Shown here: positions 1-17,186 of the stretch, in pieces
Layout: the number at the start of each line of letters is the position of its first letter
Numbering within the stretch: position 1 is the stretch's first letter
NCBI GenBank assembly: GCA_012523015.1
Contig: JAAYJI010000083.1
Location: 1-35,145, forward strand
From: Candidatus Hydrogenedentota bacterium
GTDB taxonomy: Bacteria; Hydrogenedentota; Hydrogenedentia; Hydrogenedentales; CAITNO01
Direction: 5' to 3'
DNA length: 35,145 nucleotides
Notes under the pieces: model-generated
What the model was told of the DNA's origin: nothing
Seen by the model: the letters and a program-made list of their open reading frames with translations, nothing else
Databases searched by the model: none
Program-made: the position numbers and the translations under genes

Positions 1-893
1 ATATCCGCTTCATCCAAACGCGCTTCCGCATTGCGGAGACGGCCCATGATACGCGCCCAATCGTCTTCCCGCGGTTCTTCGCGCAAGCCGAAAACAGGCA
101 GGCCCAGCCGGTGGGCAATACGCAAGCGAATTTGATCAATGGCCTCAATCTGTGCGCCCACTTCGGGCTGATCGGCAATGCCTTCCATGTAAAAAGAATA
201 GGGCAGTCCCTGCGCTTCTCTTGTTTGAATGGCATTATAATTCAACAAATAGGTTGTCGGATGAAAAATAGCGCCAATATTGCCCAGTGAGGTGGTGGCG
301 GCAATACGATTAAACAGCGCCTGCGGGAAAATCTGGGAAACGGCGGCGGCCTGCTCATCGGTAATATTTCCCTCCAGAGAACTCATCCAGGTGCGTTTGC
401 GCCGTTTGATATATACGCCGCCTGCGATGGATTTGGAGGAATAAGGGGAAGTGGAAAAGCAGACCAAGGGATAATCGTCGCCGAGAATTTCCCAGATATA
501 GGGCGCGGCAATGGTTCGCGGCGGAGAGAGGATCAGCGGAATGCGCCGTTCCAAAATCCCTGCTGCCTTCAATAGCGTTGCTGTTTCTTCTAAATGCTGC
601 GCCGGGTGCGCCACCACAATCAGCTGGGCATGGGCAACGAGTTTGTCTATAGAATGGCCGATCTCGCTCGCTCCAAAAGGAATGAGCCGCGACAGTTCAC
701 CGATGGTATTGGGCGGACGTTCCAAATAGATGCCTTGGGCGTCTTGCATGTCGGATACGGCATTTCGGCCATGCTTCGTATCGCGGGCATAGCCGTAAAC
801 AGTCAGCCCTTTCGACAAGAAGTCCGCCAAAAAAGCGCCGCCCGATTGGGTGCTCACCCCGTAGATTCCTATAGGAAGGGTCGTCATGGTCAT
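1..893 (-). CDS. Opine dehydrogenase-like protein (octopine/nopaline dehydrogenase family), C-terminus cut by window edge
   Basis: I translated this frame from the left edge: about 297 residues are present and no stop is reached. It starts MTMTTLPIGIYGVSTQSGG, an alpha/beta dinucleotide-binding opening with an unusual glycine pattern (G-V-S-T-Q-S-G-G rather than GxGxxG). Around residue 210 there is a run reading NIGAIFHPTTYLLNYNAI, followed by YSFYMEGI and a helix IEAIDQIRLRIAHRLGL. This order (His-Pro, then an aromatic-x-Y-x-E-G turn, then an acidic helix) matches the C-terminal substrate domain of octopine/nopaline/staphylopine dehydrogenases. That family reduces the imine formed between an amino acid's amine and a 2-oxo acid. 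The ATG at 893 overlaps the TGA of the ATP-grasp gene as ATGA, implying translational coupling; a second in-frame ATG lies at 887. Family assignment is by motif reading only. The substrate is unknown. Confidence 0.66.
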   Translation of the reverse strand, partial: MTMTTLPIGIYGVSTQSGGAFLADFLSKGLTVYGYARDTKHGRNAVSDMQDAQGIYLERPPNTIGELSRLIPFGASEIGHSIDKLVAHAQLIVVAHPAQHLEETATLLKAAGILERRIPLILSPPRTIAAPYIWEILGDDYPLVCFSTSPYSSKSIAGGVYIKRRKRTWMSSLEGNITDEQAAAVSQIFPQALFNRIAATTSLGNIGAIFHPTTYLLNYNAIQTREAQGLPYSFYMEGIADQPEVGAQIEAIDQIRLRIAHRLGLPVFGLREEPREDDWARIMGRLRNAEARLDEAD

Positions 894-2203
894 CGTATTG
901 CCGTGCTTTGCGTCAAATGGGCAAGCAGCAGCCGCATGATGCCCCTCAGGGCAGGATCGCTTTGCTCCAGAATGGTTTCTATTTCGTAGATACCGGGCTG
1001 CGGGTCATCGACGGTGTAGTTAGTAAGGCAATAGCTGCCTGTATGCATTTCAAACCATTCATTCATGAGTTGCACCGCCTCTTCCATCGATCGTGACCCG
1101 TCAAAGAGTTTCGACAAAAAGAGCTTTAGATTGAGGCGGTAGTGGGCGCTTGCATAGAGGGCTTCACTCGGCAGGATGATCTCCGTTCCGCTGTCCAATG
1201 AACCCATTAAATCACGATACAGGAGTTCCACATAGTTGAAGCCCAAGGAGGCTTGGAAATAGATGGACAGCCATGGACGCATATTAACTTCTATCACTTT
1301 CCAAGCGCCGGACTTTCGATCCTTCATGAATTCGATGCCGAGAAAACCACGCCAGCGCAGCGCTTTCGCCACGCGCCGGGTAATAGGCAACAACTCCGGT
1401 TTATAACAAAAACAGCTCGCATAGCCTGTACCGTAGGGCTTGGGAAATTCTTCAAGTTTATGCTGTCCCGAGAAGCAGCGCACCTCATGATCTTTGTCCG
1501 AGTAGACGTAACAGGATATTTCTTCGTCGAGACGGGTGAATTCAATTTTTTCTTGAACGACAAGATCATAGCCTGCCGCCAATTCTTGATTGAGGTGAAT
1601 GCGCAGCTCCGTTTTGTTTGCACATTCGATAGCCTTGTTTTGTCCGTGGCTGCTCTGAAAGGAATTGGTGATATCTTTAAGGGCAGGTTTATAGACACAA
1701 GGGAAAGTAATTTCTTCCAAGATGGTGTCAATGTGACTGACGTCGGTGCAGGAAAGGCTTTTCGGTGTGTCAATGTCGTTGGCGACCCACAATTCCGCCT
1801 GATTAAATTTGTGCATCTTATCCAGACAAGAGCTTTCGAAGGCGGCACCGCCCATCTGTAAGAAATAGGGCGCCAAGGTGTCGAAGTGTTGTTGGATAAA
1901 GACCTGCGACGTGTCGCTGGTCGGGATGAGCATTAATTTTTGACCATATCGCTGCTGTGCAAGATCACCCAACTCTTGGAGTGCTGCAATGGCGCCTTCG
2001 CCGTCTTCTGCCGGATTAGGGATGGTAACGGGGTCTTTAAAATAAGTGGAATGTTCGGAAATCCATGGTCCGGCATTTTTCCAAGTAAAGATGACCGGTA
2101 TGACCGGTATCCCTGCAATACCACAGCAGCGCAGCATATCGAGAAAACAATGGTCGCTGGAGCGGATTACAACAATCGGTATTTTTTTATCTAGATTATC
2201 CAT
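890..2203 (-). CDS. ATP-grasp carboxylate-amine ligase
   Basis: This is a 437-residue protein with ATP-grasp layout and no signal peptide. The N-terminal pre-ATP-grasp half opens IPIVVIRSSDHCFLDMLR. The ATP-binding part has a lysine in FPCVYKPALKD (K172) and an acidic adenine-side strand VVQEKIEF (residues 215-222). The metal-binding GFLGIEFMKD is at 286-295, with E305 and N307 in WKVIEVNMRPW. These match the predicted carboligase / D-aspartate-ligase-like branch, which activates a carboxylate as acyl phosphate and couples it to an amine or other nucleophile. About 110 residues follow the core and may set specificity. It sits between a B12 mutase-like gene (259 bases upstream) and the opine dehydrogenase-like gene (4-base overlap), suggesting one pathway. 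The ATG at 2203 has no strong Shine-Dalgarno sequence. The substrate pair cannot be deduced. Confidence 0.82.
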   Translation of the reverse strand: MDNLDKKIPIVVIRSSDHCFLDMLRCCGIAGIPVIPVIFTWKNAGPWISEHSTYFKDPVTIPNPAEDGEGAIAALQELGDLAQQRYGQKLMLIPTSDTSQVFIQQHFDTLAPYFLQMGGAAFESSCLDKMHKFNQAELWVANDIDTPKSLSCTDVSHIDTILEEITFPCVYKPALKDITNSFQSSHGQNKAIECANKTELRIHLNQELAAGYDLVVQEKIEFTRLDEEISCYVYSDKDHEVRCFSGQHKLEEFPKPYGTGYASCFCYKPELLPITRRVAKALRWRGFLGIEFMKDRKSGAWKVIEVNMRPWLSIYFQASLGFNYVELLYRDLMGSLDSGTEIILPSEALYASAHYRLNLKLFLSKLFDGSRSMEEAVQLMNEWFEMHTGSYCLTNYTVDDPQPGIYEIETILEQSDPALRGIMRLLLAHLTQSTAIR

Positions 2204-2381
2204 AAGGATTGATTTCGCCCATTATCACTGCGCTGGTAGAAAGATAGGTCTGAAGCTATCATCTGTCCTTTTCGGGAAGTGGTTTATAGCCTATATAAAT
2301 TGGGAGGTCCATGGTGTTATGCCCTACGGAGTCTGGAATTATTTTCGGCAATGCCTTGTGACGCCTCCCGCAACACATCAA

Positions 2382-2411
2382 AGAATACTGAAGATCGGAC
2401 ACTTTTATCAA
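2382..2411 (-). promoter_or_regulatory. Possible sigma70 promoter for the ATP-grasp/opine dehydrogenase pair, overlapped by a small stem-loop
   Basis: On the minus strand TTGATA (2411-2406) and TATTCT (2387-2382) are 18 bases apart, upstream of the ATP-grasp start at 2203. The -35 falls in an inverted repeat, ACACTT-ttatc-AAGTGT at 2399-2415. It would leave a leader of about 170 bases. The pair could instead be read through from the mutase gene. Confidence 0.28.
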
Positions 2412-2462
2412 GTGTACCGAATTTATGGGCAGTCCTCTGAATGAGAAGCTCGCGCTTTCCCA

Positions 2463-4286
2463 TCATCCTTGCAATCGTTCCAGCCGTTCCTTTTCAGTAA
2501 GAGGCGTCTTGCTGTCAGGGGCATAGACATCAAAAAAACCGTAGGCAGCCGGCTGGGTGACAAAAGGCGGATAGGGATAGTTGGGATGGACGAGTCCGGG
2601 GGCGGACATATATTGTTTTTCCACGGCGCGTTTCAGCACGGTGGGATTTGCCAAGGCACTAAGATCCATGGTATCCGCTGCCGCATTGGGATCCAAGGCG
2701 GCAATCTGTTTCAGGAGATAGCGCGCTTCGCGAAGCAGGTCTTCCCGTCGGTCGACGACGACTTCATCCTCTTTATAGGGCAGCAGCACCTCTTTGTTTT
2801 GTGCGAAGACCCGTGCAGCGCGGCGCACAATTTGAGAACTCTCGATAATATCATCAGCAGTAGCGGCGTGGGAAGCTTCACAATAGCTGACAAGATGAAT
2901 CATGTGTGGCGCTAGGATCATTTGGAGCAAGGTTGCACGAGCGAGTTGTAAGCGGGAGGTCTCCGGATCAGGCACGAAATACTCAATGCCCGTACGGGTT
3001 TCGCGCCAGACCTGTGCAGTTCCTTTGAAAGCGTCAATGAGTTGGAGTGCGGCCGTCATTTTCGCGAGATCGGCAAAGTCGCCCGTTTCTACAGGCTTGT
3101 TCAATTGGAACTGGAAGATCATGTCCGCCACGCTGCAGCGATTCATGACCGCCGTTATCAGGGCGTAATCGGTGACGATAATGGTGTCATGCGCCCAACG
3201 GGATGACCAATGGTTGGGATCGTTCATTTCGACGGGGATCCCTTTTTGCGCCAGAACCTGCACCGCCGCTATATGTTCATGGAGCGATTCTTCGAGGGAC
3301 ATATCGCCCCGTCCATCCAGTTCATTGAACCAAAATAGAGGAATCGCTTGGTGTGCGCCGATGAGCATGCCCGTTTGGAGGCAGGTTTCGATAAATTCGG
3401 TAATGCCTGCCACATGGGCATAGGGTTTGATGGAGGGGTAGTTGCCGCGCCGTGTTGCTTCAAAGAGCTGCCTGAGATCATCGGCATCTTTATAGGGCAC
3501 GCCGCCGTCATTTTTCTTGTTCTGAAAGGCCTCGGGATTCCCAAAATACCGTTGGGAGAGATCCGATGAGCCCAGCGAGATTTCGTCAATGACTCGTGCC
3601 TCGGCAAGGGTTTTGATGCCTTCCACGGTGGCATCGATAGTGTTCGACGGCACACCGTAATGGGTGCGCAGGAGCGGTAAGGTCGATTCGCTCATGCGCG
3701 TTGGTAAATGACGTTGCGCCGCAGAGCCGGGAATCGGCAAAGGACTTTCATCGCGATACAATTCCCCTTCCAGCACATAGTGCGCCATTTGATCCAGTTC
3801 CGGTATCCCTTTGGGGAACAACTCACTGCGCAATGTTTCCAAGATGGAGGCGCGCAGATCATCATGGATATCGAAGTAATCTAGAACCCCTTCCATGCGT
3901 TCAAAAGGGGAGAGGGTTTGTGAGAAGAGGGATAGAGACACCGGGAAACTGGCGGCGCTGCTTCGCACGCGTGCTATGGTTTCGGGCAGTGCTGCAAATC
4001 CGAACTTGCGCGGCAGGGAAGCCGATTGAAAAAGCATGCCTTGGGTCTTCAGGATATGCAGGGTGGAGGCGAGGGCGTCAACGCCCTTTTCGGGGGACAT
4101 GCGATAACTCAAACCAATATGGGAGGGATTGACCTCTTTGATGGCATGGAGCAAGGGTTCAAGGTTGGGCGATGGGGGAAGGATCAGGCATTGGATGCCG
4201 GCACGCTTGGCGATGCGCTGCACCTTAAACAACCCTTCCGTATGGGGATCATTCGCTAAGCTTGCCCCAACAAAGACTTTTGGCAT
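2463..4286 (-). CDS. Cobalamin-binding mutase-like protein (B12 domain fused to TIM-barrel-like domain)
   Basis: This 607-residue cytoplasmic protein begins with a B12-binding-type domain. NDPHTEG at residues 12-18 supplies the DxHxxG motif that ligates cobalt through histidine in base-off/His-on enzymes. A serine stands at 60 (GLSYRMS), where the S of the second motif (SxL) is expected about 41 residues on. The third GG motif is not evident near 88 (FQSAS). The remaining ~500 residues include ISLGSSDLSQRYFG, HVAGITEFIETCLQTG, MLIGAHQAIPLFWFNELDGRG and VEMNDPNHWSSRWAHD. They look like a TIM-barrel of the glutamate mutase / aminomutase type, but I cannot place it in a named enzyme. The B12 domain at the N-terminus is uncommon; in many mutases it is C-terminal or a separate subunit. 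The start has GAGG about 9 bases upstream. It probably leads the transcription unit with the ATP-grasp and opine dehydrogenase-like genes. A role in methyl transfer is the alternative. Confidence 0.7.
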   Translation of the reverse strand: MPKVFVGASLANDPHTEGLFKVQRIAKRAGIQCLILPPSPNLEPLLHAIKEVNPSHIGLSYRMSPEKGVDALASTLHILKTQGMLFQSASLPRKFGFAALPETIARVRSSAASFPVSLSLFSQTLSPFERMEGVLDYFDIHDDLRASILETLRSELFPKGIPELDQMAHYVLEGELYRDESPLPIPGSAAQRHLPTRMSESTLPLLRTHYGVPSNTIDATVEGIKTLAEARVIDEISLGSSDLSQRYFGNPEAFQNKKNDGGVPYKDADDLRQLFEATRRGNYPSIKPYAHVAGITEFIETCLQTGMLIGAHQAIPLFWFNELDGRGDMSLEESLHEHIAAVQVLAQKGIPVEMNDPNHWSSRWAHDTIIVTDYALITAVMNRCSVADMIFQFQLNKPVETGDFADLAKMTAALQLIDAFKGTAQVWRETRTGIEYFVPDPETSRLQLARATLLQMILAPHMIHLVSYCEASHAATADDIIESSQIVRRAARVFAQNKEVLLPYKEDEVVVDRREDLLREARYLLKQIAALDPNAAADTMDLSALANPTVLKRAVEKQYMSAPGLVHPNYPYPPFVTQPAAYGFFDVYAPDSKTPLTEKERLERLQG

Positions 4287-4595
4287 GTTCCAATACCTCA
4301 GCGCCGTTTAACATCGTTTCGTGTACAGCGTGGGAGGAATTATCGTTGCCGCGCTATGATCGTTGAACGGCTTTTGAAAATAAAAGCTTCCATAGTGTTT
4401 CTATTCATGAACCCTACTCATGCTACGATAGGGCTTTATACAAATGCAAATTTACGCGGGCCGATGCAAGGTTGAAATGCAAGCCGTCCCCAAAAAGAGG
4501 GGGGCTTTGTTCAACAGTCCCTCAATTTTATATGATGAAGCTGAATTCAGCGATTCATGATATAGGCAGGGCGGCGAATATAGGAAAGGAATTCA
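4287..4595. other. Divergent intergenic region between the mutase-like gene and rfbB
   Basis: These 309 bases separate two divergent transcription units and hold no convincing gene. The rfbB ribosome site AGGAAAGGA ends the region. A candidate forward promoter is listed separately. I could not pick a convincing minus-strand promoter. Confidence 0.6.
4507..4536 (+). promoter_or_regulatory. Candidate sigma70 promoter for rfbBA
   Basis: TTGTTC (4507-4512) and TATGAT (4531-4536) are separated by 18 bases, with the start codon 60 bases beyond the -10. The -10 is good (5 of 6); the -35 is weak. Confidence 0.35.
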
Positions 4596-5633
4596 ATGAA
4601 AAAGATTCTTGTAACGGGAGGAGCCGGCTTCATAGGCTCCGCGTTTGTACGCTATCAGCTGCGGCAATACCCGGACATTCAGGTGGTGGTCTTGGATAAG
4701 CTCTGTTATTCGGGAAACTTAGATAATCTCAAAGAGGCGGATTCGCAGCGCTATGAATTTATTCAGGGCGATGTGGCCGATCTGCAAGCGGTGGAGGCCG
4801 CCCTCGCCGGCTGTGATGGTGTGGTTCATTTTGCGGCGGAAAGCCACGTGGACCGCAGCTTGCAAGGCGCCTCCGATTTCATTCACACCAATGTGGCGGG
4901 GGTTAATACGCTCCTAGCCGCTTGTCAGAAATTAGAGACGGCGCGGATCTTGCTCGTCTCTACCGATGAGGTTTACGGCAGCGTTGAAGAAGGGTCTTCA
5001 GTAGAGTCTATGCCGCTCCATCCGCGCAATCCCTATTCTGCAAGTAAAGCAGCGGGCGAACTCTTCGGCCGCGCCTATTATGAGTCCTACGGATTGCCCA
5101 TTGTCATCACACGAGGCTCCAATACCTACGGGCCTTACCAATATCCGGAAAAGGTGCTGCCCTTGTTCATCACCAACGCCATTGACGGCGAGCCCTTGCC
5201 TTTATACGGCGACGGCATGAACGTGCGGGACTGGCTCTTTGTGGATGATCATTGTTCGGGCATCGATTGCGCTTTTCGACAGGGCGCGCCGGGAGAAGCG
5301 TATAACGTTGCGGGCAGCAACGAAAAACCAAATATCGAGCTCACCTATAAAGTGCTGGAGCTCTTGGACGCGCCTGAATCCTTGATCAAGCCCGTACAGG
5401 ATCGGGCAGGTCATGATCGCCGCTATTCCATTGATGATATGAAACTGCGCGGCTTGGGCTGGTCGCCTCAAATGGAGTGGCAAGCGGGCATGGCGTATAC
5501 GGTAAAATGGTATCAGGAGAATGAATGGTGGTGGCGCAAGATTAAAAGCGGCGAATTTAAAGAATATTATGAGCGCATGTATCGGCCTCTTCTGGAAGGA
5601 GGCGGCACATCTGGCTCGGGAGAAGAGGCATGA
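4596..5633 (+). CDS. rfbB: dTDP-glucose 4,6-dehydratase
   Basis: This is the second enzyme of the dTDP-rhamnose/deoxysugar route: NAD-dependent conversion of dTDP-glucose to dTDP-4-keto-6-deoxyglucose. The 345-residue protein is typical for RmlB. TGGAGFIG at residues 7-14 binds NAD. STDEVYG (122-128) carries the catalytic Thr-Asp-Glu. YSASK (147-151) is the extended-SDR Tyr-x3-Lys. [20 protein letters not shown] and [16 protein letters not shown] are the sugar-nucleotide-binding stretches conserved in this family. The ATG follows AGGAAAGGA at proper spacing. It overlaps rfbA by 4 bases (ATGA), so the two are coupled. No rfbC or rfbD lies next to it here, so either those genes are elsewhere or the 4-keto intermediate feeds another deoxysugar. 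Confidence 0.95.
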
Positions 5634-6511
5634 AAGGTATCGTCCTTGCGGGAGGCGCCGGTTCCAGGCTTCATCCCTTAACGGTGTCGGTCAGCAAACA
5701 ATTGCTGCCCGTTTACGACAAACCCATGATTTACTATCCGCTGAGCATGCTGATGATGGCACAGATCCGCGAGGTGCTGCTTATCTCCACACCTCACGAT
5801 TTACCCGCCTTTAAACGGCTTTTGGGTGATGGCGCTCAATTTGGTATGAGCCTTTCTTATGCGGAACAGCCTGAGCCCGAAGGCTTGGCGCAGGCTTTTC
5901 TGATCGGTGCTGACTTTTGCGCAGGCGAGCCTGTCGCGCTCGTATTAGGCGATAATATTTTCTACGGCAATAGCATGAGCGGGCTCCTCCGCGATGCGGC
6001 ACAACTGACTGAGGGCGCGCTGATCTTCGCCTATTACGTAAAAGATCCCGAACGTTACGGCGTCATTGAATTCGACGAGAATCACAAGGCAGTGAGTCTG
6101 GAAGAGAAGCCGAAACAGCCCAAAAGTAATTTCGCGGTGCCGGGTCTGTATTTTTACGGACCTGACGTGGTGGACTTGGCGCGCCGTTTGAAGCCCAGCG
6201 CCCGGGGCGAGTTGGAGATCACCGACTTGAACCGCCTTTACATGGAGCAGGGCAGGCTAAGCGTGAAAACCTTGGGCCGCGGTGTGGCATGGTTGGATAC
6301 GGGCACGAACCGAACGCTCATGGACGCGGGCATGTTCATCCAAGCCATTGAAGAGCGGCAAGGATTGAAAATTGCGTGCCTGGAGGAGTTGGCGTGGCGC
6401 AACGGATGGATCGGCAAGGAGCACATCAAAGAGGCAGTGGCACGGATGGGACGGAGCGCCTACGCCGCCTATTTACAATGGCTCATTGATAACGAAAAAC
6501 AGTCCTTCTAA
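5630..6511 (+). CDS. rfbA: Glucose-1-phosphate thymidylyltransferase
   Basis: This enzyme makes dTDP-glucose from glucose-1-phosphate and dTTP, the first step of the dTDP-deoxysugar pathway. The 293-residue length matches RmlA. The nucleotidyltransferase signature [13 protein letters not shown] stands at residues 6-18, followed by [26 protein letters not shown] holds the metal-binding aspartate. VEW-type product contacts appear as YGVIEFDE and [29 protein letters not shown] is also family-typical. The ATG overlaps the rfbB stop. The stop lies only 7 bases from the end of the convergent wecC-like gene. Confidence 0.95.
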
Positions 6512-6518
6512 AAAAGGC

Positions 6519-7784
6519 TTAGTCCGCGGTGAGCCCTGAGCCCAAGAGGGTGACGGTAAAGCCCGCCTCACGCCAATTATCATGGTTGAGGGCGTTGCGC
6601 GTATCGTAGAGGATTCGTTGGCGCATGCCTTGGGCTGCTTGCTTCGGATCAAGGGCTTTGAACTCCTTGTGATCAGTGAGCAACACAACTACATCCGCCC
6701 CTTCCAGACAGGCAGCGAGCGTTGTCTGCGCGCAAGGCGCCTGCTTTACATGGGGATCATAGCACTGCACAAAGAGCCCTTCTTCTTCCAAAGCTGCGGC
6801 AATCTTCAGCGACGGACTTTCCCGAATATCATCGACATCTGCTTTGTAGGCGAGTCCGAGCAATGCGGCCTTGGCATCCTTTTGTCCTTTGACCAGTCTT
6901 TTGACCGTATCAACAACATGACCCGGCATGGCATCGTTGCGGCTGCGCGCCGTTTGGATAAGTGCAGTTTCTTGAGGCGCCGCTTCCACGAGAAACCAAG
7001 GATCAACGGCGATACAATGACCGCCTACGCCCGGCCCTGCTTGGTGTACATGTACGCGGGGATGCAGGTTGGCGAGCCGTGCCACTTCCCAGAAATCTAT
7101 GCCCAAGTTTTCGCATAGACAGGCGGCTTCATTGGCGAGGGCAATGTTGACGTCACGAAAAGTGTTTTCCATGAGCTTGATCATCTCGGCGGCCGTGGCG
7201 GAGGTTTGTTTGATCGCGCCCTTCACGAAAATACGATAGACCTCCTGCGCCATGGCGGTGCTTTTCGGATCCATACCGCCGACGATGCGGTCATTTTCGA
7301 CCAGCTCACGGATGATCTTCCCGGGCAGGACCCGTTCGGGGCAGTAGGCGAGGAAAATATCTTCACCAATGGTAAAGCCCGCTTCCGTAAACAAGGGAGC
7401 TAAGAGATCGCGGCAGGTCCCGGGGGGCGAAGTGGATTCCAAGACCACGAGGTTGCCGGGGCGCAGATGGGGCAATAGGGAGCGTACGGCAGCGACAACG
7501 AGGGACATATCCGCCTTATGGGCGTCGGTGAGCGGCGTGGGCACAGCGATGATAAAGACATTGGCTTCTTCCGGGCTCATGGCGGCGCGAAGCTTGCCCG
7601 ATTCCACGGCGGCGCGCACCATGTCGGGTAAACCGGGTTCTTCAATGTGGATCTTACCGGCGTTGATGGTGTCCACCACCTCCCGGCGTACATCCACACC
7701 GAGAACGGAAACGCCTGCAGATGCGATCATAGCGGCTGTGGGCAATCCAATGTATCCCAGACCCAATACACACACAGTATTCAT
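6519..7784 (-). CDS. wecC: UDP-N-acetyl-D-mannosaminuronate dehydrogenase (UDP-ManNAc 6-dehydrogenase)
   Basis: This enzyme oxidises UDP-ManNAc in two NAD-dependent steps to UDP-ManNAcA, used in enterobacterial common antigen, capsules and other surface glycans. The 421-residue frame has the Rossmann motif VLGLGYIG (residues 6-13), LESTSPPGT, IAYCPE-like LAYCPERVLPGK, and the active-site cysteine in GPGVGGHCIAVDPWF (C257). GLAYKADVDDIRESPSLKI forms the C-terminal UDP-binding part. The segment DVNIALANEAACLCENLGID with HPRVHVHQ reads closer to WecC than to UDP-glucose dehydrogenase. I chose the ATG at 7784, not the longer frame from 7901: AAGGA lies about 9 bases upstream and the NAD motif begins at once. 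No UDP-GlcNAc 2-epimerase (wecB) gene is adjacent. Confidence 0.88.
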   Translation of the reverse strand: MNTVCVLGLGYIGLPTAAMIASAGVSVLGVDVRREVVDTINAGKIHIEEPGLPDMVRAAVESGKLRAAMSPEEANVFIIAVPTPLTDAHKADMSLVVAAVRSLLPHLRPGNLVVLESTSPPGTCRDLLAPLFTEAGFTIGEDIFLAYCPERVLPGKIIRELVENDRIVGGMDPKSTAMAQEVYRIFVKGAIKQTSATAAEMIKLMENTFRDVNIALANEAACLCENLGIDFWEVARLANLHPRVHVHQAGPGVGGHCIAVDPWFLVEAAPQETALIQTARSRNDAMPGHVVDTVKRLVKGQKDAKAALLGLAYKADVDDIRESPSLKIAAALEEEGLFVQCYDPHVKQAPCAQTTLAACLEGADVVVLLTDHKEFKALDPKQAAQGMRQRILYDTRNALNHDNWREAGFTVTLLGSGLTAD

Positions 7785-8121
7785 GAAACTTTGTCCTTCC
7801 GGTCGACGCGATAATTTTGACGGAAACAGGGCAAGGCGGCGGCGCATATACGTGGTGATCTGCAGCGCTCTCCACAGGGCTATCATTGGAGCGCAGTCCA
7901 CAGATCGAATGGGTTAGGGAAAGAAACAGTTATTTTCCCTTCCAAGCCGCTGCCGTAATCCGTTCTTGTAAAAACAGGGTAAGTATACTATACTTTAGCC
8001 AGCCTTGAAAAGGATATCTTGACCGGCGGCACGTGCCTTTTTATGGCAGCGCTCCATTCGGGAGGCTGTTGTTCGAAGGCTGCCCAAGGAGCTGCTTTAA
8101 CGATAAGTCACTACACACTCT
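7785..8121. other. Divergent intergenic region between wecC and the GT2 gene
   Basis: These 337 bases contain the wecC ribosome site at the left end and a good forward promoter (listed separately). There is no gene I would support. An in-frame TAA lies 15 bases before the GT2 ATG. Confidence 0.55.
7966..7994 (+). promoter_or_regulatory. Sigma70-type promoter for the GT2 gene
   Basis: TTGTAA (7966-7971), a 17-base spacer, and TATACT (7989-7994) make one of the better promoter matches in the window. A 5' leader of about 120 bases would follow. Confidence 0.55.
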
Positions 8122-8982
8122 ATGAACGCTTCCATTATCATAGCCGTTTATAATCGGCGAGAAGAACTGCGTGAATGCCTTGAAGCCCTCACGCCCGCAG
8201 CCTTGGAGGCGTGGAAGGCGGAAGTACTCGTCATTGATGACGGCTCCACCGACGGCACGGCCGAAATGGTGGCGCGGGACTTTCCCCACGTGCGCCGTCT
8301 GAAGACACCGGGGCGCATGGGCCCTACGGGCGCGCGGAATTTGGCGGCTGCGGAAGCGAAATCTCCGTTACTCATCTTTCTCGATTCTGATGCCGTGCCT
8401 GAAGCCCCATGGCTGGAGGAGATGACCGCCCATGACGATGGTAAGACCGTATTAATCGGTGAAATTCTAGACTATCACAGTCTTAAGCTCCAATACGGGC
8501 CGCGGCGCTCCACCTTCATCGGTAAAAGTCTGCCTTGCAAGCCTGAGCGTGCGAATGTTGGGCCTTCGTGTAATCTCGCCATTCCTGCCGCTGCGTTTAA
8601 AGAGTTGGGCGGATTTTGGGAGGAAATACCCTTTGGCTTCGAAGACAGCTTTTTGTGTATCAACGCCCGGGCCCAAGGCATGGCTTTTCGTTATCTCGAA
8701 AAGGCTGTCGTGCGGCATAAAGGGAAAAAGGAGCGCGTGGGGGATACCATAAGGGTAACAGAGCATAACGGCGTTTATGCCATGCTCCATTTTTACAGAG
8801 GCTCGTTTTGGAAGCAGCTCTTCTTTACCATCGCCAATGGGGCGTGGCTCTTTACGCGTTGTATCCTGTGGACGACGCAGGGGAAAGCTGCCGATGCGCG
8901 GCAGCTGTGGCAGGGCTGGACAAGCGCCTACAAACGCTATTATTTTCCCGCTTCGACAGCGGAAAAACAGGAGCTTCCCTAA
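8122..8982 (+). CDS. Family 2 glycosyltransferase
   Basis: This 286-residue GT-A fold enzyme transfers a sugar from a nucleotide donor in the cytoplasm, probably to a polysaccharide or lipid-linked acceptor. It opens with SIIIAVYNRREELRECL, then VLVIDDGSTDGT (36-46) for the nucleotide, and LIFLDSDA with the DxD-type metal motif DSD at 88-90. GFEDSFLCINARAQG holds the acidic catalytic-region motif (ED). The tail is amphipathic (FWKQLFFTIANGAWLFTRCIL) and may touch the membrane. The ATG lacks an evident Shine-Dalgarno sequence, but an in-frame TAA just upstream leaves it as the first usable start. The rfbBA and wecC neighbours suggest surface glycan assembly. Donor and acceptor are unknown. Confidence 0.85.
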   Translation: MNASIIIAVYNRREELRECLEALTPAALEAWKAEVLVIDDGSTDGTAEMVARDFPHVRRLKTPGRMGPTGARNLAAAEAKSPLLIFLDSDAVPEAPWLEEMTAHDDGKTVLIGEILDYHSLKLQYGPRRSTFIGKSLPCKPERANVGPSCNLAIPAAAFKELGGFWEEIPFGFEDSFLCINARAQGMAFRYLEKAVVRHKGKKERVGDTIRVTEHNGVYAMLHFYRGSFWKQLFFTIANGAWLFTRCILWTTQGKAADARQLWQGWTSAYKRYYFPASTAEKQELP

Positions 8983-10227: not shown

Positions 10228-12630
10228 TTAGTTGCGCAGCGGTTTGCCGCTTGCCAGCATGTTTTGAATCCGTGCCTGTGTTTTTTCCGTGCCGCACAAG
10301 CTTACAAAGGCTTCGCATTCCAGATCGAGGAAATCCTCTTCGGTCATGGGGGTCCCTGCAGCGCGATTACCGCCGCAAAGCACATTGGCAAGATGGTTGC
10401 TGATCAGCACGTCATGTTCGCTCGCCCAGCCCGCTTCTTTCATGCCCCACAAACCGGCGGCAAAGGCGGCCTTGGCGCTGTCACCTAAAGCATAGAGCCG
10501 CGGTTTGCGCGGAGCCGTGTAGCCGGCGACAACCATGCCCAGACATACGGATTTGGCTTTTTGAATCTGATGATCGTAGTTGGGCAGCACAATATCGCTC
10601 GTCCGGAAATAGCCCAATTCGATGACTTCAGCGCCGCTCGTGCCTACCTTGGCCGTGGCGATATTTTCAAAAGCACGGCGCACGAAGGGGAAAGCATCGT
10701 TGGGCTGGATGTTAGCAGGCATGTATTCCAAGGCACGCACAAGCAGTTCCGTGGTGCCGCCGCCAGCGGGGATGACGCCCACACCTACTTCCACGAGACC
10801 GGCATAGGTTTCACCAGCAAGCACCACCTTATCGGTGTGTTGGCAGATTTCGACTCCGCCGCCAAAGGTGTAATGGTGGGGCGCTGCAACGACAGGGGCA
10901 CCACAATATTTCATGCGCATGCCGATGCCCTGTAACCCGCGCACCATATCCTCCAAACCTTTCCAGTTCTCTTGCATAGCATCGCCGAGAACGAGCATGA
11001 GGTTGGCACCGGCGCAGAAGTGGGGCCCTTGATTGCCCACCACCATGCCTTCAAATTTGCCGGCTTCAAGCAAGTCAACGCCTTTATTCAAGGCAGCGAC
11101 AATGTCAGGGCCGATGGCGTTCATTTTGCAATGGAATTCCACACACAAGATACCGTCGCCAAGATCAATTAAACTGGCTTCATCCAGCTTTTCAATCACC
11201 TTGGTGGGATCGGCTTTAATATTGATCAATTTCACTTCGTTCGGATTCTTGGGAATGGGACGGTAGGATTTGGTGGCAAGATCGAAAAACATGGATACGC
11301 CATTTTCTGTCTTGTAAAAGGATTTTCCGCCCGATTCCTTCAGGGCTTGGGCGATGGGGGGCAGGGCGATGCCTTCCGCGGCCATACGCTCACAAACGGC
11401 GTCAAAGCCGAGAATATCCCACGTCTCGAAAATACCGACATCCCAAGCGAAACCCCATTTACAAGCATTATCCAGATTCACAATGTCATCGGTAATTTCA
11501 GGGATACGGTTGCCCGCGTATTGTGCCAATTCAGCGAAGAATTTAAAAAGGAACTTAGAGCCTTCATCCTCGCCAAAGTGCATGATTTTAAGTTTATCGG
11601 CTAGGCTTCCCGCACTCCGTGCCGCACCGGTACAAGCGAAGCGCGGTTTTATAGGGGCGCGATAGTCCAAGGTGTTCGGATCCAAACCCAAGATGACCCG
11701 TTTTCCTTTTTCATCGCGTTCTTTCGTGGCTTTATAGAAGCCCGAGCCCGATTTATTGCCGAAATAGCCTTTTTCGATCATCTGATCGAACCAAGCGGGG
11801 CCGGTCATCAGGTCGCGGCGTTCGTCGTTGGGGCAGCCGTTATAGACATTGGCAACTACCTTCTGCAAGGTGTCTAGTCCAACAAGATCAGCGGTGCGGA
11901 AAGTAGCGGAACTGGCATGACCGATGGCAGGACCGGTCAAGGCGTCGACTTCCTCAACACTTAATCCTGCCTTGACCATTTCATGCATTAAATACTGCAT
12001 GGCAAAGGTGATGATACGGTTGGCGACAAAGTTAGGCGTATCTTTGGCGTAAACAATGCCTTTGCCTAAAACGTTTTCGCCGAAAGCGCCCACTTCCTTG
12101 ACTACTTCAGGGCTGGTCTTGGCCGTGGGAATCACTTCCAGGAGCTTCAAGTAACGGGGTGGATTGAAGAAGTGGGTGCCTAAAAAATGCTGAGCCATTT
12201 CCTCGGGCATATCTTCAGCCATCGCGGAAATAAGAATGCCGCTCGTGTTGGAACTGACGACGCTGCCCGCTTTGCGGTACTTCGCGACTTCTGCAAAAAT
12301 CTTCTTTTTGATGTCCAGCCGCTCGATCACCACTTCGATGATCATGTCGCAATCGGAAATTTTCGGCATGTCATCCTCGAAGTTGCCTATCTCAATCATA
12401 TCGAGATAGGACTTTACATAGAGAGGCGCAGGTTTGGCTTTGAGCAACGCCGCCCGCGCACCCGCGGCGATGGCGTTCCGTTTAGCCTGGTTGGTTTTGT
12501 CCGCCTCAGACAAATTGGGGGGTACAATATCGAGCATTAAACTGGGTATTCCGCAATTTGCAAGATGACCGGCAATGGCGGCTCCCATAACGCCCGAACC
12601 CAATACTGCGACACGTTTTATTTCCCTCAT
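10228..12630 (-). CDS. fadN: 3-Hydroxyacyl-CoA dehydrogenase / enoyl-CoA hydratase, FadN type
   Basis: This 800-residue two-activity beta-oxidation enzyme carries the hydration and NAD-dependent oxidation steps. The order is dehydrogenase first, hydratase last, as in Bacillus FadN (YusL) and opposite to E. coli FadB. The NAD motif VLGSGVMGAAIAG is at residues 9-21. EVVIERLDIKK, SSNTSGI and HFLGTHFFNPPRYLKLLEVI are 3HCDH hallmarks, with PNFVANRI next. The crotonase-like part has VEFHCKMNAIG, GNQGPHFCAGANLMLV (oxyanion hole) and GGGVEICQHTDKVVLAGETYAGLVEVGVGVIPAGGG. I chose the ATG at 12630 because the upstream TTG at 12639 lies only one base from GGAG, while this ATG has GGAG ten bases before it. 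A promoter and palindromic operator precede it. Confidence 0.93.
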   Translation of the reverse strand: MREIKRVAVLGSGVMGAAIAGHLANCGIPSLMLDIVPPNLSEADKTNQAKRNAIAAGARAALLKAKPAPLYVKSYLDMIEIGNFEDDMPKISDCDMIIEVVIERLDIKKKIFAEVAKYRKAGSVVSSNTSGILISAMAEDMPEEMAQHFLGTHFFNPPRYLKLLEVIPTAKTSPEVVKEVGAFGENVLGKGIVYAKDTPNFVANRIITFAMQYLMHEMVKAGLSVEEVDALTGPAIGHASSATFRTADLVGLDTLQKVVANVYNGCPNDERRDLMTGPAWFDQMIEKGYFGNKSGSGFYKATKERDEKGKRVILGLDPNTLDYRAPIKPRFACTGAARSAGSLADKLKIMHFGEDEGSKFLFKFFAELAQYAGNRIPEITDDIVNLDNACKWGFAWDVGIFETWDILGFDAVCERMAAEGIALPPIAQALKESGGKSFYKTENGVSMFFDLATKSYRPIPKNPNEVKLINIKADPTKVIEKLDEASLIDLGDGILCVEFHCKMNAIGPDIVAALNKGVDLLEAGKFEGMVVGNQGPHFCAGANLMLVLGDAMQENWKGLEDMVRGLQGIGMRMKYCGAPVVAAPHHYTFGGGVEICQHTDKVVLAGETYAGLVEVGVGVIPAGGGTTELLVRALEYMPANIQPNDAFPFVRRAFENIATAKVGTSGAEVIELGYFRTSDIVLPNYDHQIQKAKSVCLGMVVAGYTAPRKPRLYALGDSAKAAFAAGLWGMKEAGWASEHDVLISNHLANVLCGGNRAAGTPMTEEDFLDLECEAFVSLCGTEKTQARIQNMLASGKPLRN

Positions 12631-12681
12631 GGCATACAATCTCCTTTATTCTTTGACTCGCAACATGGGCCTTACAATGTA

Positions 12682-12701
12682 TACTTAACGGTCGTTAAGT
12701 A
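12682..12701. promoter_or_regulatory. Perfect 20-bp palindrome, likely TetR-family operator for fadNA
   Basis: TACTTAACG-GT-CGTTAAGTA is a perfect inverted repeat with 9-base arms. It begins five bases downstream of the predicted fadN -10, over the expected transcription start, where a bound repressor would block initiation. Fatty-acid degradation genes are commonly controlled by TetR-family repressors released by acyl-CoA. The regulator gene is not in this window. Confidence 0.62.
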
Positions 12702-12706
12702 AATCT

Positions 12707-12735
12707 ATAGTACATCATTTAAAGGGCAACTTCAA
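12707..12735 (-). promoter_or_regulatory. Candidate sigma70 promoter of fadNA
   Basis: On the minus strand TTGAAG (12735-12730) and TACTAT (12712-12707) are 17 bases apart, each matching consensus at 4 of 6. The leader before the fadN ATG would be about 70 bases and would contain the palindrome. Confidence 0.45.
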
Positions 12736-12814
12736 CTATTTACAACAACTAATTTTGAAGACATAAAATAAGTTCCCACAAAAGACTGTTCAAGTAAACA
12801 AAAACTAAAGGGTC

Positions 12815-12843
12815 TTGTTCCCGAAGCGCCGATAAGGTACCAT
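12815..12843 (+). promoter_or_regulatory. Weak candidate promoter for the metallophosphoesterase
   Basis: TTGTTC (12815-12820), a 17-base spacer, and TACCAT (12838-12843) are the best match I found. They would give a leader of about 135 bases. Confidence 0.25.
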
Positions 12844-12985
12844 ATGGCTATAGTGCTTGTTTCGGCGGAAGACGTCGGCACCGCTGCCCGTGAAATTTGG
12901 CGTGGGTACCGCGTCCGCCGGCTTCAGCACTCATGGCTCCTCCGACGCCAAAACCCTTGAAACAACAACAATAGAAGGCATTTAT

Positions 12986-13855
12986 ATGGCGCGTTTTATT
13001 CACATTACTGACCTGCATTTCTGGAGCATTGTACGCAATCCGTTGCGCCTCATGAATAAGCGATTCTTAGGCAATTTGAATCTTGCCTTGCGCCGCCACC
13101 GCCATTTACACATCCATCGTGCCCAATCCTTTCTGGATACACTCAGCGCCATGGATGTGGACGCTGTGTTTGTGGGCGGTGATTTAACTTCCACCGCAAC
13201 GGACGAAGAATTCCAACAGGCGGCGCAGTTTTTAGATCAAGTGGCATCCCGTTGTCCCGCCCTTTATGTAGTACCCGGCAATCATGATTGCTATACCTTC
13301 GAAGCGCAGCGCAAAGGACGGTTTCAAGGCTATTGCGGGAAATATGCGCCGCTTACCGATACTCCGCTTTTGAGCGAACTCACGGCAACGTGCGCCCTCT
13401 TGCAGATTCCCACCGTACGCCCGAATCTTATCTCCTCTCGTGGGTATATAGGACAGCAGACAATGAAGGCGACGGCGGAATTGCTTGAATCTGTGACTGC
13501 AGAGCAGATGATTGTGCTTGCCCATTATCCCGTGCTTAATCGCACGTTAAACTATCAATCTGATTATGGCAGGCGCTTGGGAGGCGGTGCGGCACTGCGG
13601 CGGCTCTTGGGCGAATCAGGCAGAGACCTCCACTACCTCGCCGGTCATGTACACGTGTTCAGCCATTCCTCTGATCCGCTTTATCCTTCCTTGACCCACA
13701 TCACGACGAGCGCCCTCTTTTATGAAAGCGCCAAGCGCAGCGCGGGCTTCACCGAGTTGGTGGTGGATGAGGGCGGTATTCGAGTCTATCCGTGGCACTA
13801 TGCCGATGATTGGCATCGCGGAGCGGAATCCCTGCCTGAAGCGGGTACGTCTTAA
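12986..13855 (+). CDS. Calcineurin-like metallophosphoesterase
   Basis: This 289-residue protein carries all the metal-binding blocks of the superfamily: DLH (D9, H11), GGDL (D66), GNHD (N99, H100), AHYP (H180) and GHVH (H221, H223). The arrangement resembles the class III cyclic-nucleotide phosphodiesterase (CpdA-like) group, but many substrates are possible, including phospholipid head groups or nucleotides. No signal peptide is seen when starting at MARFIHITDLHF. That ATG has AGAAGG 8 bases upstream, and the first metal ligand follows within ten residues as in relatives. It ends 15 bases before the end of the convergent GH95 gene. Confidence 0.88.
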   Translation: MARFIHITDLHFWSIVRNPLRLMNKRFLGNLNLALRRHRHLHIHRAQSFLDTLSAMDVDAVFVGGDLTSTATDEEFQQAAQFLDQVASRCPALYVVPGNHDCYTFEAQRKGRFQGYCGKYAPLTDTPLLSELTATCALLQIPTVRPNLISSRGYIGQQTMKATAELLESVTAEQMIVLAHYPVLNRTLNYQSDYGRRLGGGAALRRLLGESGRDLHYLAGHVHVFSHSSDPLYPSLTHITTSALFYESAKRSAGFTELVVDEGGIRVYPWHYADDWHRGAESLPEAGTS

Positions 13856-13870
13856 AAAGAAATGAAGGCT

Positions 13871-16135
13871 TTATAGCGCTTTAGGCGTGAGCGTCCAGCG
13901 GTTGCCGTCACGGACGATGGTCATGACCTCTTCCATGGTTGCAGCATCCAGCGATCCGCTTTCCTTGCTCCACGGACATTGAACGACGGGTGTCCTGCCT
14001 GTTTCCGATTCAATAATTACTTCCTTGGTTTCGCCGCCGCTCCGTGTTGCAGATACGAGGAACGCCCCTTCGCCGCGCAAGGTGGTGAAGGCGGCTTCCG
14101 ACCAATGCTTGGGCACGGCAGGAAAAACACAGAGGATACCCGTATGGCTTTGAAGCAGCATTTCATTAAGTCCTGCGGCAAAGGCGAAATTACCTTCAAG
14201 TGTAAAGGGGCGATAGGTGAAGTTGCTATAACCTTTGCCCGATTGATCGCCGTTGCAATGGAAACTGTTGCGTAAGACAAAGGCTTCTGCGAAAGTGTTC
14301 AGCGCCTCTGCCGCCGTATCGCCCGCCTGCGCGCGTGCGGCAATGGATGCCAACCAAGAAAAACTGTAGCCTGTCCAGGCACGGGAGCCGTGGCGCAGCA
14401 GATCCTTCAAGGTGGCCCGTACGGTTCGTTCCTGATCTACACCCTGGCTGCGGTCTACGAGTCCCAGCGGATGTATCGCCATGGCATGGGAAAAATGACG
14501 GTGCGATTCTTTCAAGGGATAGTCCGCAGCGATAAGAAGCGCCCCTGATTTCGCCAGTGCGAGGGGCGGCATTGTGTCTAAAACTTCCAGCCAGTGTTCC
14601 GCTTCTTGTGTTTTGTCCAGTTCCAAGGCAAGCTCAGCGGTTTTTTCAAAGACCCAGCGGATGAGCGCGTTATCGTAGTTGGTCATGGTTGGGAACCACG
14701 CGTCGGGTTTGTTGTCGTTGATTTCCGGCGATGAGCTGAGCGGCAATCGTCTGTACCCGTCTGCGTCCCGTTCATGGGTTACCTTTTCTAAAAAGACAGC
14801 GCTCGCTTCGAGCCAGGGGTAGGCGCGTTCTTCCAAGAACTGAGGGTCGCGGCTATATTGCCAGTGCAAATAAAAATGGTGGGCAAGCCATGCGCCTGTT
14901 GTGGAGGAATGGGTATACTGACGCCAGCCGCCGATTTGACGCAAACGCAAGTCCGTAGTCATGGCGACATTCAAGCCGGGCATGTGGAAGAACCGTTCTG
15001 TCCACGCCTCGGCATTGCCCTTGTTTTCCCACAGCCAATCAAGAAAGCCCAGCCCCTCTTCCAGCCGGTTACCGCTGTAACAGGGCCAATAACTTAATTG
15101 GGTGTTTAGGTCGTGATGGTAGTCGCCTTTCCATGGCGGCAGCTTTCCATCATCAGCGGTCCAGGGACCTTGAAGCGTGATGGGCGGCGCAGCGCGTCGT
15201 GCCGCAGCACCAAACTTGTACATTTCTAAATACCATTGCTTTTCAATGCGGGGATTCGGTACAGCGATGCGGCCTTTGCCCCAGTACTCTTGCCACCACG
15301 TTTCATGACTGCCGCGCAGTGCCTCCCGATTGTCGAGAGCATGACGGACCCGGTCATGGGCGCGCTGCAGAGGATCACCTTCTTCAAAAGCGGAGGCGAT
15401 GCTCCATGCCGCGAGAATGCCTGTGTCTGTGTTGCGCCATTCCAAAGAAACGGCAAAAGAGAAATCCTCATAACCTTGCTGGCGGTAGGAAAGGTGATTT
15501 GGTGTTGAAGAGACTTCCGGCGCCGCATATTCCAATTGGGCGAGACTGCCCATGACAAAGCCTTCGGAAGTTTTCTTTTCGCGTTCACCGGAAAAGTCGG
15601 GTGCTTTTAAGGAAAATCCCGCTTCTGTGGTGCCTAGGATTTCGATAAAACCGACCGCCTCTTCGGCATGAATCCACGTGCGTACTTGAACGTCGTCCCC
15701 TAAGCTGATCTGTGATTCTCCAACAGCAATATCCAAGTTTCCTTCAAGAAAGGGGAGCGCTGCGGGAAAGGTAATTTCGATTCTGCCCGCAGGAATTTTT
15801 GTCGGTGCCGGACGATGATAAGGATCATCGTAAAGTGCCTTTAGCGCATCGTAGCGCCCTTCCTTTTCCCACTGTCGCATGGTGTCGTAGGAATAGTCTT
15901 CAGAATAGTATTCGGGAACAAGGCGCAGATCCCACAAATCGGTACGGTCCAAGGAGATGTTTAAAGGCGCGCCGTCGCCCCAAACCAATGCACCGAGGAT
16001 GCCGTTGCCGAGCGGGAAGGCTTCATCCCAGACCTGCGCCGGCTCGGTATAGTGTAGACCGTGTGCCTCGTTCGGCAGCGAATCAATGGTGGAAAACAGC
16101 ATGAAGCTGCTCATGAGAGCGCAGAAAAGCATCAT
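13871..16135 (-). CDS. Secreted GH95-like glycoside hydrolase with altered active-site residues
   Basis: This 754-residue protein starts with a hydrophobic signal (MMLFCALMSSFMLFST), so it is probably exported. The N-terminal beta domain opens AQVWDEAFPLGNGILGALVWG, the hallmark of GH95 (alpha-L-fucosidase/galactosidase). The (alpha/alpha)6 barrel contains YHHDLNTQLSYW (341-351), SSSPEIN with candidate acid E471, and FTLEGNFAFAAGLNEMLLQSH with E647. In known GH95 enzymes the corresponding stretches read H-x-N-x-N and D-G-N-F: here the first Asn is Asp342, the second is kept (N344), and the base-activating Asp is Glu647. The fold call is firm; the sugar cleaved is not. It begins 4 bases after pilT and its ribosome site (AAGGA) lies inside the pilT end, so the two are co-transcribed. 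Confidence 0.85.
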   Translation of the reverse strand: MMLFCALMSSFMLFSTIDSLPNEAHGLHYTEPAQVWDEAFPLGNGILGALVWGDGAPLNISLDRTDLWDLRLVPEYYSEDYSYDTMRQWEKEGRYDALKALYDDPYHRPAPTKIPAGRIEITFPAALPFLEGNLDIAVGESQISLGDDVQVRTWIHAEEAVGFIEILGTTEAGFSLKAPDFSGEREKKTSEGFVMGSLAQLEYAAPEVSSTPNHLSYRQQGYEDFSFAVSLEWRNTDTGILAAWSIASAFEEGDPLQRAHDRVRHALDNREALRGSHETWWQEYWGKGRIAVPNPRIEKQWYLEMYKFGAAARRAAPPITLQGPWTADDGKLPPWKGDYHHDLNTQLSYWPCYSGNRLEEGLGFLDWLWENKGNAEAWTERFFHMPGLNVAMTTDLRLRQIGGWRQYTHSSTTGAWLAHHFYLHWQYSRDPQFLEERAYPWLEASAVFLEKVTHERDADGYRRLPLSSSPEINDNKPDAWFPTMTNYDNALIRWVFEKTAELALELDKTQEAEHWLEVLDTMPPLALAKSGALLIAADYPLKESHRHFSHAMAIHPLGLVDRSQGVDQERTVRATLKDLLRHGSRAWTGYSFSWLASIAARAQAGDTAAEALNTFAEAFVLRNSFHCNGDQSGKGYSNFTYRPFTLEGNFAFAAGLNEMLLQSHTGILCVFPAVPKHWSEAAFTTLRGEGAFLVSATRSGGETKEVIIESETGRTPVVQCPWSKESGSLDAATMEEVMTIVRDGNRWTLTPKAL

Positions 16136-16139
16136 TGTC

Positions 16140-17186
16140 TTATCCTTCTTCCAATTCTTTAGGGTTGCGCATTAACGCGACGGCATCGTCATAACTGATA
16201 CGGTTTTCAAGATACAGCGTTTTAAGGCTGCGGTCCATGGTCGTCATGCCCACCTTCGCGCTCGTTTCCAAAATACTGTAAATTTGATGAGTTTTATTTT
16301 CACGTATCAAATTGGCAATAGCTTGGTTGTTGCGTAAGACTTCATAGGCAAGTATGCGCTGCTTCTTCTCTTTATGGGGTAAGAGCCGTTGTGAAATCAC
16401 CGCCAACAAGGTAAGAGACAATTGGAATCGGATTTGTTGTTGTTGGATGGCGGGGAATACGTCGGTTATGCGGTCTACGGCTTGGATAGCGTCATTGGTA
16501 TGGAGCGTCGCAAAAATGAGGTGGCCCGTTTCAGCCGCTGTGAGTGCCGCCTGAATGGTTTCGATATCGCGCATCTCACCAATCAAAATGACATCCGGGT
16601 CTTGTCTCAACACATACTTCAACGCACTGGAAAAGCTGTGCGTGTCATTGCCCACCTCACGCTGATCCACAATACTGCGTCGGTGGGGGTGCAGATATTC
16701 AATGGGATCTTCAATCGTGAGGATATGACAGGCACGGTGGGTGTTGATCAGATCAATAAGGGATGCTAAGGTGGTGGTTTTACCGCTTCCTGTCGGACCT
16801 GTCACCATGACGAGCCCTTGTTTATATTTCGCCAAGTCGGCAATGTGGTCAGGTAAACCGAGTTCCGAAAGACTGGGGATTTCTTCAGGGATAGGGCGCA
16901 GTGCCGCCGTGACCGCCCCCTTCTGGTAGTAGGTATTTACGCGGAAACGATGACCGTCGCTTGAGGCGAGGGAAAAATCCAACTCCTTATATTTCTCAAA
17001 GGTGAGCTGCTGCTCTTTCGTTAAAAAACTGTAAATGAGCGTTTGCGTTTGTTCCGACGTCAATGCATTTGTCTTTTGACGGTAAAGTTGACCGTTAATC
17101 CGTAAAATAGGGGGGGCATTGGCGCTGATTATTAAATCGGAGGCATTCTCACGGCGAACAAGATCAAACAGACTCTGTATATTCAT
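16140..17186 (-). CDS. pilT: Type IV pilus retraction ATPase
   Basis: This cytoplasmic hexameric ATPase depolymerises type IV pili, powering twitching motility and DNA uptake. The 348-residue length is typical. Walker A GPTGSGKT is at 130-137, the Asp box at ILTIEDPIEYLH, Walker B at VILIGEMRD (199-207, E204) and the His box at GHLIFATLHTND (221-232). The C-terminal retraction motif, AIRNLIRE in classic PilT, reads AIANLIRE here (289-296). The start has AAAGGGA close upstream. No other pilus gene is adjacent. The gene directly downstream, with a 4-base gap, is the GH95-like hydrolase. Confidence 0.94.
   Translation of the reverse strand: MNIQSLFDLVRRENASDLIISANAPPILRINGQLYRQKTNALTSEQTQTLIYSFLTKEQQLTFEKYKELDFSLASSDGHRFRVNTYYQKGAVTAALRPIPEEIPSLSELGLPDHIADLAKYKQGLVMVTGPTGSGKTTTLASLIDLINTHRACHILTIEDPIEYLHPHRRSIVDQREVGNDTHSFSSALKYVLRQDPDVILIGEMRDIETIQAALTAAETGHLIFATLHTNDAIQAVDRITDVFPAIQQQQIRFQLSLTLLAVISQRLLPHKEKKQRILAYEVLRNNQAIANLIRENKTHQIYSILETSAKVGMTTMDRSLKTLYLENRISYDDAVALMRNPKELEEG

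Follow-up and report, generated by a model that had tools for sequence, protein, structure and literature searches.

What would a cell make with a cobalamin-dependent mutase, an ATP-grasp ligase and an opine dehydrogenase (ODH) encoded side by side? The question is raised by the left end of a 35,145-nucleotide stretch of DNA from a Candidatus Hydrogenedentota bacterium, here called the window, which is an entire contig (C83) of a 3.7 Mb metagenome-assembled genome, so that base 1 is a contig end. On the minus strand the mutase comes first, followed by the ATP-grasp and the ODH. The second and third genes share 4 bp (ATGA, 890-893), and the first two are separated by a gap of 259 bp (2204-2462), in which a sensitive Rfam search of window positions 1-8200 matched no RNA family; in a relative, locus L009, the two genes overlap by one base. 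An earlier note on this DNA had given the order, the coordinates, the strand, the ATGA overlap and the DxHxxG motif of the mutase, and on re-reading the sequence we found all of them correct. We propose, with a probability of about 0.42, that the mutase and the ODH are the core of a conserved biosynthetic module whose product, an unusual opine amidated or conjugated by a ligase, serves as an osmolyte in one part of the family (subfamily II) and as a sugar substituent in the part to which the window belongs (subfamily I).

The mutase and the opine dehydrogenase as a conserved pair

Is the arrangement at the left end of the window an accident of one contig? When 386 genomes were searched with a profile, the mutase turned up in Hydrogenedentota and in 12 further genomes sampled from across the bacteria. 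Mutase and ODH lie in one cluster in all 39 loci examined, which come from many bacterial phyla, and they are directly adjacent except in the window, L009, L010 and L103, where one ATP-grasp gene stands in between. Since this clustering is without exception and the order of the trio is kept in two relatives (L009 and L010), the arrangement is not a matter of chance. The phylum of genome G259 could be followed most closely: among its 103 genomes both genes occur in the same 65, with no discordant case, and 65 of its 66 mutases have an ODH on the same strand within 156 bp, the remaining one having a Ddl-type gene in between; these genomes are not independent, yet presence and absence alternate inside several genera. 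The mutase and ODH trees are correlated (r=0.66), and none of 2000 permutations gave a value as high. In each of the two trees the window, L009, L010 and L044 group together on a branch of their own, subfamily I. At L103 (1710-5629, plus strand) the partners of a subfamily III mutase are an ODH and a Ddl-type ligase of the local lineage, and such a swap suggests that the reactions are equivalent. When genome contigs were scanned with the window mutase, two close relatives were the sole matches, and plasmid searches with two of the mutases gave no match.

A ligase-type gene, which may be Ddl-type, AsnB-type or another ATP-grasp, is found beside or near the pair in 26 of the 39 loci, and in much of subfamily II these ligases are relatives of D-Ala-D-Ala ligase. 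Besides the ligase, no further gene was conserved across 20 loci of one phylum. We have high confidence in the gene identities and in the functional coupling of mutase and ODH. The earlier note had placed the three genes in one pathway and had expected a conserved neighbourhood among homologues, and both views agree with the conserved trio, the clustering of the pair, its co-occurrence in one phylum, the correlated trees and the three recurring classes of ligase.

The reactions predicted for the three enzymes

What kind of mutase is this? The Pfam B12-binding family matched the window protein at 19.8 bits, under its curated cut-off, and homologues scored better, with matches down to 1.2e-11 for B12-binding (PF02310) and 4.9e-6 for Met_asp_mut_E; among seven homologues the former family matched four and the latter two. 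The AlphaFold2 model (pLDDT 79.8) had as its best PDB match in Foldseek glutamate mutase E (GlmE; 1cb7_B, E=4.8e-10, TMt 0.62), the enzyme with which the earlier note had meant it to be compared, and the next matches were other adenosylcobalamin (AdoCbl) mutases. Profile comparison with hhalign, using 38 mutase homologues against real GlmE sequences, gave E=1.4e-7 over 359 columns. In the DxHxxG motif His15 and Gly18 are invariant (38/38), and Asp13 is replaced by Cys in most of subfamily II. The B12 domain and the barrel form one fused chain in the aligned full-length members, with no separate S and E subunits. For the active site we take Arg66, Arg100 and Arg149 of GlmE to be its arginine claw and Glu330 to be a further residue of importance; their numbering was confirmed on the 1cb7_B sequence. 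Glu330 aligns with Glu470 of the mutase, which is invariant (38/38), and the position of Arg149 is occupied by Arg or Lys. The counterpart of Arg66 may be Arg207 or His209, and no conserved Arg is aligned with Arg100 among the 38 homologues, in a comparison that leaves the placing of the claw residues insecure over the N-terminal half of the barrel. Without a conserved equivalent of Arg100, the enzyme probably acts on something other than plain glutamate.

Two established enzyme types were considered and rejected. One is the pyridoxal phosphate (PLP)-dependent aminomutases, such as ornithine aminomutase (OraE) and lysine 5,6-aminomutase: the insertion in the B12 domain of OraE, which carries the PLP-binding lysine, is absent from the mutase family. 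The other is a true glutamate mutase, in which the arginine claw would be conserved. For these two reasons, the absent insertion and the missing Arg100, the protein, judged from its sequence, is most likely a PLP-independent carbon-skeleton mutase distinct from glutamate mutase itself. The window also encodes a second B12-type enzyme, a B12-binding and radical SAM protein at 27063-28514 on the minus strand.

The protein at the left edge proved to be a true relative of the opine dehydrogenases and not an unrelated Rossmann protein, a case that the earlier note had allowed for. The window fragment exceeds the curated threshold of Pfam Octopine_DH (35.6 against 30 bits) and on its own matches N-(1-D-carboxyethyl)-L-norvaline dehydrogenase (CENDH, 1bg6) at 1.8e-7; the profile of the ODH family matches it over nearly the full length at E=2e-90. 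We take His202 and Asp297 of CENDH to be its catalytic dyad, and their equivalents are conserved in 38/38 and 37/37 members of the family, respectively, that of Asp297 in the window enzyme lying on another contig, C290. In subfamily I the glycine-rich nucleotide loop is altered (GVSTQSGG) and an insert is longer. By these comparisons, the ODH is a relative of CENDH and octopine dehydrogenase with a predicted catalytic His/Asp dyad.

The third protein has profile scores below the cut-offs of both Pfam ATP-grasp (19.5 bits, 8.2e-4, cut-off 27 bits) and a PRK12767-like NCBIfam entry (4.9e-8). Its AlphaFold2 model, of low confidence (pLDDT 55) and built from a mixed alignment with a non-orthologous third row, has the L-amino acid ligase RizA (4wd3, E=2e-14) as its best Foldseek match, and among its 455 PDB matches at E<=0.001 those listed are ATP-grasp enzymes. 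A different, non-orthologous ATP-grasp occupies the same slot in L010 as in L009 and matches an L-amino-acid-ligase C-terminal domain. All three identities that had been read from the letters have held: a GlmE-like fold and profile for the mutase, an ATP-grasp fold on a low-confidence model for the ligase, and PF02317 for the ODH.

How might these enzymes work together? The mutase would use adenosyl-radical chemistry to rearrange the carbon skeleton of an amino acid or a keto acid. The ODH would form a reductive C-N bond between the product of the mutase and a keto acid, or an amino acid, which would give an unusual opine, and the ATP-grasp, Ddl-type or AsnB-type ligase would amidate or conjugate this opine. 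We have moderate confidence in the carbon-skeleton rearrangement and, separately, in the opine-type C-N bond formation. Could the module instead be catabolic, with an ODH that splits opines from the environment oxidatively into amino acid and keto acid and a mutase that passes the amino acid on to a degradation of the glutamate mutase kind? Opine dehydrogenases are reversible, glutamate mutase is classically catabolic, and the true GlmE genes found here adjoin GlmL-like and methylaspartate ammonia-lyase-like genes. However, the ligases beside the pair consume ATP, which points to synthesis, genes for an ammonia-lyase or for opine uptake do not recur, the ligase alone being conserved across the 20 loci, and control by cyclic di-AMP (c-di-AMP) and nhaA-I RNAs, described below, better suits stress solutes. 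We consider degradation improbable.

Proposed osmotic and surface-glycan roles

If the module is biosynthetic, what is its product for? Genome G113 and its relative G538, both from one small phylum, each carry an ODH-mutase-ligase operon whose ODH start comes two bases after the end of a c-di-AMP riboswitch (107 and 106 bits, with a cut-off of 38; L047:10496-10632 and L140:4858-4994, both on the minus strand). Genome G250 has two nhaA-I RNAs (44 and 46 bits, cut-off 37), at L045:10346-10399 and 5654-5706 on the minus strand, of which one precedes the ODH-mutase operon and the other a separate nearby AsnB gene. In L045 and L046 the mutase is followed by a CBS protein and by a membrane protein that, by eye and without a profile search, resembles a cation antiporter. 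Osmolyte synthesis genes are under the control of Na+ and c-di-AMP riboswitches elsewhere (PMC9337991). Since RNAs of two osmotic or ion-related classes are found in two phyla, the product of subfamily II would be one of osmotic stress, probably a solute made in many bacteria, and our confidence in this osmolyte role is moderate to low.

It may be asked whether the product modifies the cell wall or peptidoglycan and is neither a free solute nor an O-antigen decoration. The kinship of many subfamily II ligases to D-Ala-D-Ala ligase would suit such a role, and c-di-AMP also controls cell-wall genes. Against it, no mur genes recur beside the pair and AsnB and other ATP-grasps replace the Ddl-type enzyme, and we regard a cell-wall role as quite unlikely.

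In the clade of the window the setting is another one. The earlier note had pointed to the left of base 1 for the rest of the ODH, and by orthology we traced the missing C-terminus, with an in-frame TAG, to the end of another contig of this genome, C290 (G000:C290 = L138:19530-19964, minus strand). Following the ODH on the same strand, C290 encodes a family-2 glycosyltransferase (ArnC-like), a flippase-like membrane protein and a sugar-transfer-associated ATP-grasp and, further on, a WecE-type transaminase and a large membrane protein which resembles a GT-C transferase and matched no family. The order is the same in L009 and L010, the latter without the second ATP-grasp, and a Wzm/Wzt-type exporter and more glycosyltransferase-like genes are also present in C290 and L010. 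The WecE protein scores 589 bits with NF008687 (cut-off 375), and RmlA and RmlB, which flank the trio in the window, likewise exceed their curated cut-offs; together the three complete the enzyme set for a dTDP-4-amino-4,6-dideoxyhexose. The product of subfamily I would probably be an acyl substituent on the dTDP-4-amino-4,6-dideoxy sugar from these enzymes; by its gene position, the ATP-grasp would couple the mutase-ODH product to the sugar amine, and a polyprenyl lipid would carry the substituted sugar, to be exported in a surface glycan. A natural parallel is alanopine, N-(1-carboxyethyl)alanine, which is described on Qui4N in the O-antigen of Providencia alcalifaciens O35 (PMC10609480). 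Our confidence in a glycan decoration in this clade is moderate to low.

Is it possible that the trio stands beside the glycan genes by accident and that its product is the solute proposed for other phyla? Most occurrences of the widespread core pair are outside glycan clusters. Yet three Hydrogenedentota genomes of two genera have the trio and the GT2, flippase-like, WecE and GT-C-like genes in one shared order, with little space between them and frequent overlaps, and we find an accidental association unlikely.

Opine dehydrogenase chemistry also serves metallophores of the staphylopine type, and the earlier note had drawn this analogy. Could the product be an opine-type metallophore, made by a route without nicotianamine synthase (NAS)? 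In L044 an MFS transporter adjoins the pair, as a metallophore would allow. The ODH, however, belongs to PF02317 and matches CENDH, not the family of CntM, and the riboswitches are of the osmotic or ion type and not of a metal-starvation type. Reading the neighbourhoods of the pair, mostly by eye and without a dedicated search, we recognised no NAS-like, TonB, metal ABC or other metal-uptake gene. The analogy gained no support. The setting is one of surface-glycan genes here and of osmotic or ion riboswitches in some other genomes, and we hold a metallophore to be very unlikely.

Several observations weigh against the module as we propose it, with its osmolyte and sugar-substituent branches. 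In the mutase, one is the position of Arg100 discussed above. In the window's own genome, the join of C83 to C290 rests on orthology, with about five codons missing in comparison with L009 and no overlap, and the ODH piece on C290 has an in-frame TAG at the 45th codon from the contig end, where L009 has a tyrosine; for these reasons this copy of the ODH may be a broken gene or the result of a misread or a misassembly. The trio and the glycan genes may simply be neighbours, and glycan genes do not recur in subfamily II loci, so that one product need not serve both settings. On the osmotic side, RNA searches showed no riboswitch at the subfamily I loci, nor at most of those of subfamily II, and the antiporter was recognised in the manner stated. 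The nhaA-I RNAs have been validated as sensors of Li+ and not of Na+, although they are similar to Na+-I riboswitches and the authors consider Na+ sensing possible for some members (PMC9646797).

The fullest form of our proposal is that B12 mutase and ODH make a new class of opine, used as an osmolyte in many bacteria, in some of them under c-di-AMP or alkali-ion riboswitches, and that Hydrogenedentota recruited it, with a different ATP-grasp, for a surface amino sugar. This is tentative, and we think it possible but doubtful. If true, it would add a carbon-skeleton radical step to opine biosynthesis, and it would mean a new class of compatible solutes as well as a new substituent of surface glycans. 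The riboswitches offer a physiological clue that can be tested, namely osmotic or alkali-ion stress, the relation to GlmE is a clue to the type of reaction, and the Hydrogenedentota cluster points to a second use of the module.

The positions of the genes discussed are collected in Table 1. Two further observations concern the relatives. At its contig edge L009 has a CRISPR-like array (19-426) with six copies of a 36-base repeat at a spacing of about 73 bases. In L044 (genome G195) a protein of more than 2100 amino acids with 11 MopE copper-binding-type motifs and HYDIN-like Ig domains is encoded upstream of the ODH (11616-17999, minus strand).

Table 1. Genes and motif at the left end of the window, with the support for each assignment
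Feature	Position	Strand	Support
AdoCbl-dependent mutase-like protein, 607 aa; N-terminal B12 domain, GlmE-like TIM barrel, C-terminal domain	2463..4286	-	fold, profile
DPHTEG, exact DxHxxG cobalamin-binding motif, residues 13-18	4233..4250	-	sequence
ATP-grasp amide/peptide-type ligase, 437 aa	890..2203	-	fold match; Pfam/NCBIfam below cut-off
Opine dehydrogenase (PF02317), N-terminal 297 aa with catalytic His, cut by contig end	3..893	-	PF02317 35.6 bits
RmlB, dTDP-glucose 4,6-dehydratase; proposed sugar branch	4596..5633	+	TIGR01181 421 bits, cut-off 365
RmlA, glucose-1-phosphate thymidylyltransferase; proposed sugar branch	5630..6511	+	TIGR01207 463 bits, cut-off 361
Nucleotide-sugar dehydrogenase, UDP-ManNAc dehydrogenase-like; glycan setting, pathway membership uncertain	6519..7901	-	TIGR03026 449 bits, cut-off 189.8; NF008286 457.9 bits, cut-off 459
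Family-2 glycosyltransferase; glycan setting, pathway membership uncertain	8122..8982	+	PF00535 86.4 bits

Comparison with known systems

How does the module compare with systems already described? With glutamate mutase (GlmE and GlmS) the mutase shares the fold of the barrel and the C-terminal part, the type of B12 domain, the Glu330 equivalent and a basic residue at the position of Arg149. It differs in being a single chain with the B12 domain first, in the lack of a conserved Arg100 and in having no adjoining GlmL or methylaspartase gene. The ODH resembles CENDH and octopine dehydrogenase in its full-length profile match and the His202/Asp297 pair, and differs from CENDH, in subfamily I, in the loop and insert mentioned above. 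The ligase has the ATP-grasp fold in common with RizA and D-Ala-D-Ala ligase, and the L010 ligase has in addition its L-amino-acid-ligase C-terminal domain match, but sequence identity to these enzymes is low. The product type that we propose, a 4-amino-4,6-dideoxy sugar with an opine at its 4-amino group, is that reported for P. alcalifaciens O35; unlike there, where no B12 mutase is known to take part, a mutase would be involved, and the sugar would be Fuc4N according to the WecE assignment.

The closest precedent is a prediction of Zhang, Rodionov, Gelfand and Gladyshev (2009), who described from 11 bacteria a B12-binding family 'always adjacent' to a pfam02317 ODH, with D-Ala:D-Ala ligase and asparagine synthase nearby, in Thermotogae and three other groups, and gave no function for it (PMC2667541). 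The core pairing of mutase and ODH is not new, since it was predicted in that work (PMC2667541). Our literature searches on opines together with glutamate mutase, ATP-grasp or Hydrogenedentes returned nothing relevant and no function for the pair. The N-terminal B12-binding domain, the clustered pfam02317 ODH and the nearby Ddl or AsnB genes of the 2009 family are all found here, the window having another ATP-grasp in place of Ddl or AsnB; compared by description, the window protein appears to fit every feature given for that family. The relation to the glutamate mutase fold, an ATP-grasp beyond Ddl, the Hydrogenedentota subfamily, the glycan cluster and the riboswitch link do not appear in the 2009 paper. 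What is new in comparison with it is the Hydrogenedentota subfamily in a surface-glycan cluster, together with the riboswitches that stand directly upstream of the pair elsewhere.

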